Assembly (NCBI RefSeq): GCF_029968095.1
Contig: NZ_JASCIR010000002.1
Location: 62,001 to 126,000, forward strand
Origin: Streptomyces solicavernae
Lineage (GTDB): Bacteria > Actinomycetota > Actinomycetes > Streptomycetales > Streptomycetaceae
Reading direction: 5' to 3'
Length of the DNA stretch: 64,000 nucleotides
Shown: positions 8,879 to 12,139 of the stretch, piece after piece
Layout: every line of letters begins with the position of its first letter
Position numbering within the stretch: position 1 is the first letter of the stretch
Notes under the pieces: generated by a model
Seen by the model: only the letters and a program-made list of their open reading frames with translations
Database searches by the model: none
What the model was told of the DNA's origin: nothing
Translations under genes and position numbers: made by a program

Positions 8879-10123
8879 TCACCCCGCCATCACCGCATGC
8901 AGCGCCTCCGCCGCCCCCCGCCCGAACTCCGCATCGTTGAGATGCCTATCGACCTCCACCACCTCCACCCCACTGCCCCGCAGCCCCTCCCGCAACGCCC
9001 CGAACAGCACCTGATCCAGCTCCGGTTCGTAGTACGGACCACCGGGCCCACCCAGCGTGGACAACCCCCGCAGCGGCAGCAACAGCGTCGTCGGCCCGAC
9101 CGCCGCACGCAGCTTCGCCGCGACCAGAGCGCCCAGCTCGGCGCACTCCTGTGCGGTGGTGCGGACCACGCTGATGGACGGGTTGTGCACCCGCGGCCGC
9201 CGCGCCCGGAACCGCTCCGGGACCCGTTCCATCGGCCCGAACTTGATCATGTCGAGCGCGCCCGGCGCCACCACCTGCGGCACCCCCGCCCGCCCCGCAC
9301 CGCTCAACCGGTCCGGCCCCGCCGTGAGGATCCCCCCGAGCGCCTCGTCAGCGATCTCGCACAGCGTCAGGTCGAGCACCCCGGCCAACAGGCCCCGCCC
9401 CGCCAACTCCTCAAGCGACCGCCCGCCGGTGCCCGAGGCGTGGAACACCAGGACCTCGTAGCCGAGTTCGGTGAGCCGGGCGCGGGCCGCGTCCACACCG
9501 GGCGTCGTCACCCCCGCCATGGACGCCGCGACCAGCGGCCGGTCGCCCGCCGCGAACTCCACGGACCGCTCGGCGCGGGCGGCCGCCGCGTACCCCTGCG
9601 CCATCCCGGCGGCCGCGTCGGCGGCGTTGGCGAGGACGGGCCGCGACACCCGGTTCACGCCCGCGATGTCGACGATGCTGTACAGCATGGCGATGTCCGA
9701 GCCGCCCACATACGGCGACACGTCCCCGGCGGCCATCGACGACACCATCAACTTCGGTACGCCCAACGGCAGTTCACGCATCGCCCGGGTCGCGATCGAC
9801 GTACCGCCGCTGCCGCCCACCGCGAGCACCGCGTGCAGCCGCCCCGCCGCGTGCAGCCCGGTCACGACCCGGGCGGCGCCCCGCGCCATCACGGTCACGG
9901 CCGCGCCCCGGTCCCCGTCCCGGGCGAGCCGCGCGACCTCGCTCCCGGCGGCCCGGGCCACCTCGTCCCGCGTGATGTCGGGCAGCACGCGGGGCGTGCC
10001 GACGATCCCGGTGTCCACGAGCAGCGTCCCGACCCCCCGCTCCCGTAGCCGGTCCCGCACCCATCCGTACTCCTCGCCCTTGGTGTCCAACGTTCCGACC
10101 AGCACAACCATGGGTATCGGCAT
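8879..10123 (-). CDS. Tm-1-like ATP-binding domain (UPF0261) protein
   Basis: 414 residues from ATG 10121-10123 (a second ATG four codons in is also possible). The family signature is at the N-terminus: VVLVGTLDTKGEEYGWVRD, followed by LLVDTGIVG and AVLAVGGSGGTSIATRAMR. The second half has ASMAGVTTPGVDAARARL and VLVFHASGTGGRSLEELA. Plant Tm-1 uses this domain to bind viral replicase; bacterial members are of uncertain function, in some genomes placed near TIM-barrel and catabolic enzymes. It is divergent from the acyl-CoA synthetase gene at 10496. Most of the gap between them is a 283-bp inverted-repeat element, so its promoter must lie in or beside that element. Confidence 0.87.
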   Translation of the reverse strand: MPIPMVVLVGTLDTKGEEYGWVRDRLRERGVGTLLVDTGIVGTPRVLPDITRDEVARAAGSEVARLARDGDRGAAVTVMARGAARVVTGLHAAGRLHAVLAVGGSGGTSIATRAMRELPLGVPKLMVSSMAAGDVSPYVGGSDIAMLYSIVDIAGVNRVSRPVLANAADAAAGMAQGYAAAARAERSVEFAAGDRPLVAASMAGVTTPGVDAARARLTELGYEVLVFHASGTGGRSLEELAGRGLLAGVLDLTLCEIADEALGGILTAGPDRLSGAGRAGVPQVVAPGALDMIKFGPMERVPERFRARRPRVHNPSISVVRTTAQECAELGALVAAKLRAAVGPTTLLLPLRGLSTLGGPGGPYYEPELDQVLFGALREGLRGSGVEVVEVDRHLNDAEFGRGAAEALHAVMAG

Positions 10124-10177
10124 GAAGATCAGTGTTCGCCGACGAGGACACGCACGGCAAGACCACGAACAAGATCC

Positions 10178-10460
10178 AGGGCCTGTCCGGCGGATCTTCG
10201 CGGAACAGGCCGCGGCGTCATGGGGGTCCCCCCTGTTCGAGCGGAGCCGAGAGCTTGGGGGAGCGTGCTCTGGGGGTCCCCCCGGCCGAAGGCTGGGGGA
10301 GTGCGCCCGGATCGCCCTCGTACTGGACGTACTTGGGTGATTCGGGCGTGCGGCGAGTGGGGGTACCCCCGGCCGGAGGCTGGGGGAGCGTGCCTGGGGG
10401 CACCCACAGCGGTAGCTGGGGGAGCGTCGTGGGCCCGCGAAGATCCGCCGGACAGGCCCT
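10178..10460. mobile_element. 283-bp MITE-like element with 26-bp terminal inverted repeats
   Basis: Bases 10178-10203 and 10435-10460 are perfect reverse complements (26 bp; outer ends AGGGCCTGTCCGGCGGATCT). Inside are four imperfect hairpin repeats (10221-10262, 10271-10301, 10358-10387, 10394-10423), each opening with GGGGGTCCCCC or a variant and closing with GCT-TGGGGGAG or GCTGGGGGAG. No open frame in it looks like a protein. No clear target-site duplication flanks it. It sits between two divergent genes and leaves only 54 and 35 bp outside it. Size, terminal repeats and lack of coding suggest a non-autonomous insertion element or an amplified Streptomyces intergenic repeat. Confidence 0.7.
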
Positions 10461-10495
10461 AGCCGCACCCCCGGCCCCCGGGGCATGCTGACGCC

Positions 10496-12139
10496 ATGCT
10501 GCAGAGCGAACCCCTGTCGAGCGAACCCCCGTCGAGCGAACCCCTCTCGTACGCACATGGCCTCGGTGACACCCCGCTGACCGGGGACACCATCGGACGC
10601 AACCTCGACCGGGCGATCGCCCGGCACCCGGACCGCGATGCGCTCGTCGACGTGCCGTCCGGCCGGCGCTGGACGTACGCCGAGTTCGGCGCCGCCGTCG
10701 AGGAGGTCGCGCTCGGACTTCTCGGCCGGGGCGTGGCCAAGGGTGACCGGGTCGGCATCTGGGCCGTCAACTGCCCGGAGTGGGTGCTGGTCCAGTACGC
10801 CACCGCCCGCATCGGCGCGATCATGGTCAATATCAACCCGGCCTACCGCGCCCACGAGCTGGAGTACGTCCTCGGCCAGGCCGGGATCGGCGTCCTCGTC
10901 GCCTCCCTCGGCCACAAGACCAGCGACTACCGCGCCCTGGTCGAGGAGGTGCGGCCGCGCTGCCCGGGCCTGCGCGGCACGTACTACATCGGCGACGAAG
11001 CCAGCTGGGCGGAACTCCTCGCCCGCCCGGCCGACCGGGCCCGACTCGCCGCCCGTGAGGCCGAGTTGAGCTGCGACGACCCGGTCAACATCCAGTACAC
11101 CTCGGGCACCACCGGCTTCCCGAAGGGCGCCACGCTCTCGCACCACAACATCCTCAACAACGGCCACCGCGTGGGGCAGTTGATCGGTTACAGCGAGCAG
11201 GACCGGATCTGTCTGCCGGTGCCCTTCTACCATTGCTTCGGCATGGTCATGGGCAACCTCGCGGCGACCGCGCACGGCGCCTGCATCGTCATCCCCGCCC
11301 CGTCCTTCGAGCCCGCGGCGACACTGCACGCGGTCCAGCAGGAGCGCTGCACCTCCCTGTACGGCGTGCCGACGATGTTCATCGCCGAGCTGAGCCTGCC
11401 CGACTTCGCCTCGTACGACCTGACCTCGCTGCGCACCGGCATCATGGCGGGCTCGCCCTGCCCCGTGGAGGTCATGAAGCGGGTCGTCGCCGAGATGCAC
11501 ATGGAGCAGGTGTCGATCTGCTACGGCATGACGGAGACGTCCCCGGTGTCGCTGCAGACCCGCATGTCGGACGACCTGGAGCGGCGCACCGGCACGGTCG
11601 GCAGCGTCCACCCGCACCTGGAGGTGAAGGTCGTCGACCCGGCCACGGGGGTCACGGTGCCGCGCGGTGAGCCGGGCGAGCTGTGCACCCGCGGCTACAG
11701 CGTGATGCTCGGCTACTGGGACGAGCCGGAGAAGACCTCCGAGGCCATCGACGCCGGCCGCTGGATGCACACCGGGGACCAGGCGGTGATGCGCGAGGAC
11801 GGGTACGTGCAGATCGTCGGCCGGATCAAGGACATGATCATCCGGGGCGGCGAGAACATCTACCCGCGCGAGATCGAGGAGTTCCTGTACGGGCACCCGC
11901 TGATCTCCGACGTCCAGGTGGTCGGCGTACCGCACGAGAAGTACGGCGAGGAGGTCCTGGCCTGCGTCATCCTGCGCTCGCCGGAGGACGGCCTGACCCT
12001 GGACGAGCTGCGCGCCTACTGCCACGACCGCCTCGCCCACTACAAGATCCCGACCCGCCTGCAGATCGTGGAGTCCTTCCCGATGACGGTGTCGGGGAAG
12101 GTGCGGAAGGTGGAGCTGCGGGAGAGGTTCGGGGGCTGA
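10496..12139 (+). CDS. AMP-dependent acyl-CoA synthetase
   Basis: 547 residues. Complete ANL motifs: [60 protein letters not shown] and the catalytic Lys in [14 protein letters not shown]. The family resembles FadD3/medium-chain acyl-CoA synthetases. The N-terminus carries three near-identical SEPxS units, encoded by a 15-bp direct repeat at about 10503-10547, which is not part of the family fold. The second ligase in 5 kb, it is read divergently from the UPF0261 gene and starts 36 bp after the MITE-like element, so its promoter may lie within the element. Confidence 0.9.

Follow-up and report, generated by a model that had tools for sequence, protein, structure and literature searches.

The divergently transcribed genes of a UPF0261 protein and an acyl-CoA synthetase in Streptomyces solicavernae are separated by an inverted-repeat element that contains several hairpins. 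The locus raises two questions: is this element a part of the promoter region or a mobile insertion, and does its folded interior do anything? The analysis started from a stretch of 64,000 nucleotides (the window), and all positions refer to it. Perfect 26-bp inverted repeats were present at 10178-10203 and 10435-10460, and the 26-bp repeat had no other site in the window with three or fewer mismatches. In 100 shuffles no such repeat was obtained, so the inverted ends are not chance products. A preliminary description of this DNA had given the element as 283 bp; the inverted-repeat element is real, but the outermost A/T belongs to a TA target, so the element extends over 281 bp (Table 1). Its termini read GGGCC...GGCCC and adjoin TA, the left TA copy having decayed to CA. 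The four hairpin units (the last of which is slightly degenerate) and the spacing to the divergent ATG codons (54 bp to the one at 10121-10123 on the minus strand, 35 bp to the one at 10496) were as that description had them. The shortness of the element and its perfect terminal inverted repeats are those of a MITE.

Table 1. Features of the element and its neighbours, in window coordinates
Feature	Position	Strand	Basis or remark
UPF0261 gene, left neighbour	8897..10123	-	Pfam PF06792, PF23189; start codon
Left target copy, CA (decayed TA)	10177..10178	.	Empty site in G313 is CTAG
Whole MITE, 281 bp	10179..10459	+ (better-folding strand)	Ends; empty site in G313; model match 10179-10459
Left terminal inverted repeat	10179..10203	+	Outer 20 bp identical to those of a G169 element of the IS5 family
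Cassette H4, 43 nt	10221..10263	+	Absent from L013, L007, L008, L004
Cassette H3, 31 nt	10271..10301	+	Absent from L013, L007
Terminal stem-loop of the conserved core (CTCGTACTGGACGTACTTGGG loop region)	10302..10352, approximate	+	Folds; compensatory changes
Cassette H2, 31 nt	10358..10388	+	Absent from L013, L008, L003
Cassette H1, 30 nt, degenerate CACCCAC	10395..10424	+	Absent from L013, L007, L008
Right terminal inverted repeat	10435..10459	-	Inverted repeat and end comparison
Right target copy, TA	10460..10461	.	Window sequence; empty site in G313
Acyl-CoA synthetase gene, right neighbour	10496..12139	+	Pfam PF00501, PF13193; start codon

We searched the S. solicavernae genome with the element using BLAST and obtained 78 matches, many of which covered no more than one hairpin or one end. 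When the loci were examined and three spurious end pairings removed, 12 copies with both ends were counted, with lengths of 34 (three copies), 52, 163, 188, 190, 194, 243, 255, 281 and 281 bp; five additional 34-bp forms showed one to four substitutions each. The ends matched at 16 forward and 14 reverse sites of the genome, and the controls gave 0. Further copies with the same ends thus exist in this genome, as expected of a MITE. The 34-bp mini forms (GGGCCTGTCCGGCGGATCTTCGCGGGACAGGCCC) lay at eight loci (L039:4310-4343, L042:4687-4720, L043:4478-4511, L040, L041, L044, L045 and L046) and resembled bases 1 to 33 of the long form, with a second end closing them. Two contigs of the assembly (G000:C45:1 and C6:1) started within copies of the element, so its repeats probably break this assembly. 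A search of phages with the element gave no match, and a search of plasmids gave partial matches in 11 Streptomyces records, none covering 80% of it.

The locus was also searched in 392 genomes of the genus (E 1e-90). Besides S. solicavernae, only G313 showed matches to both sides of the locus adjacent to each other. In G313, the region between the UPF0261 and acyl-CoA synthetase genes is free of the element and reads GATCTAGCCG. Of six further S. solicavernae copies whose flanks we looked for in G313, four had their flanks there, all uninterrupted: the empty sites of L004, L008 and L005 had a single TA and that of L013 had TC, and the flanks of L003 and L007 gave no match there. Empty sites and a target duplication therefore accompany the element, with the left copy in the window reading CA and the empty L013 site TC. 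A 4-bp duplication of CTAG was considered, since most flanks read CTAG, but the empty targets GTTAGG and CCTAATC show that TA is what is duplicated. These empty sites bear directly on the first question. The element takes up most of the DNA between the start codons, as a fixed, non-mobile regulatory structure of the divergent promoter might. However, the same sequence occurs elsewhere in the genome, and at the only orthologous locus found, that of G313, the site is empty, which refutes such a reading; we give it almost no credence.

The preliminary description had further proposed that the element must carry promoters or insulating hairpins for both genes. This necessity is unsupported, as the element-free locus in G313 has 98 bp between the start codons. 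Since both flanks were also kept in the window, promoter DNA need not have been lost, and to judge by the sequence the flanks retained from the empty state could hold the promoters. No sigma-70-like (promoter-like) or terminator-like site was found in 10090-10560; the terminator role considered for the hairpin cassettes was rejected on the latter result. A 15-bp tandem repeat occupied 10504-10556, among the opening codons of the acyl-CoA synthetase gene, and was shorter in G313.

A transposase that could move such an element was found in other species. G169 has a 1,522-bp element flanked by TA whose outer 20 bp are identical to those of the MITE at both ends, and G083 has a 1,570-bp element with the same outer 20 bp except for one difference at one end. 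Each encodes an IS5-type transposase in two overlapping frames. The G169 protein belongs to IS5 by NCBIfam NF033580 (141 bits versus a cut-off of 110), and the Pfam domains of the partner transposase were PF01609 and PF13340. Insertion at TA is a habit of IS5 subgroups. The first transposase frame of the G169 element contains a stop, so this copy may be inactive. An extra open frame, possibly a passenger, lay beside the transposase in both elements (G169, L119:1511-1969; G083, L135:562-1086). In the S. solicavernae assembly, which is 89% complete, no transposase element with identical ends was found; the ends of the closest one, on contig C31, matched at 16 and 15 of 20 positions. Under a strict TA rule, element ends were recovered in 8 of 30 related transposase loci. 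The sequences leave three candidates for the partner in this genome: it may have been lost, it may lie in the unassembled part, or a cross-acting relative may serve in its place. The earlier suggestion of a MITE-like, non-autonomous element is borne out by the other copies, the empty sites in a relative, the TA duplication and the transposase elements of other species whose ends are the same, and it is nearly certain that the element in the window is a MITE of IS5 type.

The second question concerns the interior. The 163-nt copy L013, which has none of the four inner hairpins, folded from end to end, and it did so well on one strand alone: the fold had 72 pairs, 12 of them G.U, and an energy of -151.2 kcal/mol (z -15.4), compared with -108.8 kcal/mol and one G.U pair on the opposite strand. 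The window copy folded better than shuffled sequences on both strands, with -198.9 (z -8.75) on the + strand and -161.4 (z -7.42) on the - strand, and its tally of 8 G.U, 1 A.C and 4 other pairs was less clear-cut than those of other rows. Among 17 end-bounded stretches in other genomes, seven from five genomes were judged homologous by eye and showed a bias in the same sense (7-1, 10-0, 9-3, 3-2, 7-2, 10-2 and 5-3); the other ten were without a consistent bias.

A covariance model was built from eight sequences. In an alignment of 36 matches, which was fitted to the model and retained one opposite-strand row, 52 of the 72 pairs had changed on both sides (362 cells), compared with a mean of 100 for shuffled alignments and 34 to 81 for slid controls. 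Pairing of the outer helix follows of necessity from the inverted-repeat ends; of the 47 pairs in the inner helices, which form the core, 28 had changed on both sides. A first strand tally gave 306 G.U and 23 A.C, with all 32 motif-oriented rows biased. As the loci in this tally were mostly picked by the model, and the model rewards G.U, it was redone on loci chosen by a DNA pattern. From 115 model matches, 73 had the 20-base pattern on their strand and 69 of these were distinct; the rest were dropped. At 42 core pairs, these 69 rows gave 2,119 Watson-Crick, 646 G.U, 9 A.C, 59 other and 65 gapped cells, and G.U exceeded A.C in every row. Many G.U positions are inherited by descent, so the independent events are far fewer than the cells. 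In a variable part of the stem, G-C, C-G, A-T and G.T were found at one and the same pair, and the core hairpin also contained conserved blocks of tandem G.U. The core thus shows both covariation, in an alignment fitted to the model, and a conserved fold on one strand, with its G.U pairs partly inherited, as a structured RNA would. Searches of Rfam with window positions 9900-10700 and with nine loci gave only weak matches, far below the gathering scores. These patterns make selection on an RNA hairpin likely.

Comparison of the copies showed that the core was not tied to one kind of end. It was found between unrelated ends such as GGGCCTGTCCGGCGGATC, GGGCCTGTCGTCAAATTC, GTGCCGCGTCAGGCAACG, GGGCCCTTCTGATGGATC and GGGGGTGTTTCGAAAGTC. 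At 74 pattern sites, evaluated with a script that favours TA, TA was present on both sides in 46 cases and on one side in 7, and no end pair was found in 5. Between end types two (GGGCCTGTCGTCAAATTC) and three (GTGCCGCGTCAGGCAACG), the core was 91% identical and the ends 22%, the exact 20-base pattern that chose the compared rows having raised the core identity. The end type of the S. solicavernae MITE itself was more distant, with 72-79% identity in the core and 45-64% in the ends. One further kind of end, GGGCCTGTTGCGAAAGT, resembled those of a G079 element of IS5 type. The S. solicavernae genome also carries core copies with other ends, L435 (G000:C12:205016-205388) and L436 (G000:C15:73400-73740), and both kept the strand bias, with G.U counts of 10 to 0 and 9 to 1, respectively. 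That one core, on one strand, recurs in elements whose ends differ widely suggests that it is the folded copy which is being kept.

The covariance model matched 323 of the 392 genomes of the genus, at most seven candidates being scored per genome. When the sample was widened to the class, the matches by our row count fell in 20 of 28 genomes within the genus versus 5 of 268 outside it. At least 80 named records had the core, and those listed comprised 77 of Streptomyces and 3 of Kitasatospora. Copies outside the genus (G449, G439, G500 and G582) had core motifs in common by eye and the same strand bias, which was weak in some of them (9 versus 7 in one). An ordinary dead MITE with IS5 ends and a functionless interior could account for part of these results, if the fold were a by-product of the inverted arms and the bias came from mutation that favours one strand, such as C to T where single strands are exposed, and from later spread of a few source copies. 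An ordinary transposon would indeed have such ends and such a TA target, G313 lacks the copies at five loci, which may thus have spread recently, and inheritance explains many G.U positions. However, the compensatory changes lie inside the core, the same strand bias occurs in homologues of several genera, and the core is kept under differing ends; moreover, plain C-to-T change cannot yield the swaps from G-C to C-G or A-T. We consider a dead MITE unlikely, although of the alternatives weighed here it deserves the most attention.

The inner GGGGG hairpins form a layer of their own. The cassette pattern, TGGGGGNNCCNCC, a variable stem-loop and TGGGGGAG, was found in 324 of the 392 genomes with up to 168 matches per genome, compared with 0 to 4 per genome in controls. 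The phrase "amplified Streptomyces intergenic repeat" in the preliminary description therefore suits these hairpins, which are a separate dispersed repeat throughout the genus. In the MITE copies, each of the four cassette sites was either filled or held a short fixed sequence, and each filling replaced a few bases. No site was filled in L013; L008 had H3, L007 had H2, L004 had H1 to H3, L003 had H1, H3 and H4, and the window copy and L002 had all four. This pattern may reflect gain, or loss or recombination. Within the hairpin, H4 faces H1 and H3 faces H2 to within two base pairs. Where a core was near by, 54 of 55 cassettes, many of them related by descent, lay on its strand and one on the opposite strand. 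Cassettes were also found in other settings. In G313, one was nested in the loop of another (L165:1544-1593, L166:1544-1593), and some lay within another Streptomyces repeat with CAGCCCCTC-like and ATTGAGGA-like flanks (L166:109, L168:3079, L185:340), of which there is presumably a cassette-free form.

The nesting and the near-uniform strand of the cassettes would also fit a fold that acts in single-stranded DNA, such as that of replication forks, and serves there to move the core or cassettes between elements. G.T pairs are tolerated in single-stranded DNA, and the strand bias would be expected there as well. The ends and the TA duplication, however, indicate double-strand DDE transposition of the whole element, and we regard a single-stranded DNA function as doubtful, a weaker candidate than the dead MITE.

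The reading that we consider probable is a MITE moved in trans by an IS5-family transposase, with a portable one-strand hairpin core that would act as RNA. The transposase would recognise the 20-25 bp ends and insert the MITE at TA, often within CTAG, duplicating TA. The core of ~105 nt and the ends together make one long hairpin when single-stranded, here on the + strand. Core sequence and pairing are kept throughout the genus while unrelated ends swap in, so that different transposases could move the same core. In the window copy, the four stem-loop cassettes occupy both arms on the same strand. Upon read-through transcription of the core strand, the RNA would form a rod of high stability from which side hairpins project, and the rod could act on the transcript as a barrier or be a target of a double-strand-specific RNase, probably RNase III. 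It might thereby uncouple neighbouring transcription units and make insertions tolerable. Mobilisation in trans, RNA-level selection and effects on neighbouring genes are what we infer from these comparisons.

Gene context was counted with a gene caller that relies on a crude test of GC content at the codon positions. By this test, 13 of 54 core elements lay inside predicted genes; the neighbours of the 41 intergenic ones were convergent in 18 cases, tandem in 13 and 4, and divergent in 6. The right-hand gene often stopped exactly at the TAG of the element, which may be either real insertion of a stop codon or a boundary artefact. Cassettes without a core showed no orientation relative to genes (n = 40; 19 inside predicted genes and 21 split 6, 5, 6 and 4).

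A broader proposal can be put forward more tentatively, and we hold it to be somewhat short of an even chance. The core would be a functional, strand-specific structured RNA, a portable cargo of MITEs with ends suiting many IS5-type transposases; the cargo would be selected, the ends exchangeable and the strand-locked cassettes a second mobile layer, in Streptomyces and patchily in other actinomycetes. Classification of MITEs mostly rests on the ends, and what lies between them is often taken as debris; here the interior is constant in structure and strand and the ends vary. If the proposal is true, the core, which is missing from Rfam, would rank with the structured elements most widely distributed in Streptomyces genomes. 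It raises the testable question of whether a transposon-borne RNA hairpin benefits its carrier or host enough to be kept. In addition, hairpins between Streptomyces genes should be interpreted with caution, as they may be recent insertions and not conserved regulators. In a literature search with partial journal coverage, where absence weighs little, we recognised no paper on the MITE family or the cassette in Streptomyces. Nor did this search turn up a core conserved beneath exchanged ends together with strand-locked cassettes.

Related known systems include the IS5-family insertion sequences (NCBIfam NF033580), of which the G169 element has the same 20-bp ends and TA flanks; they encode a transposase, whereas the MITE in the window is too short to do so. 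RUP of Streptococcus pneumoniae is a MITE whose ends match an insertion sequence, IS630, and which targets TA (PMC2229807). The MITE described here likewise has ends that match an insertion sequence and a TA target, but its ends match the IS5 family and its core is common to different end types. QMITE1 and QMITE2 of Coxiella burnetii are multi-copy MITEs reported as a source of small RNA (PMC5896051); they differ from the MITE in the window in ends, host and size. The cassette resembles REP and REPIN sequences in being a short dispersed hairpin that is sometimes nested, and we do not claim membership (PMC3116915, PMC3733652). Correia/NEMIS of Neisseria and ERIC of enterobacteria are small repeats with long stem-loop transcripts and reported effects on mRNA, and the orientation of ERIC matters (PMC2229807). 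By analogy, the MITE in the window would work like NEMIS or ERIC if it were transcribed. The likeness that we draw is one of form, and the exchangeable ends and nested cassettes set the Streptomyces element apart from both.
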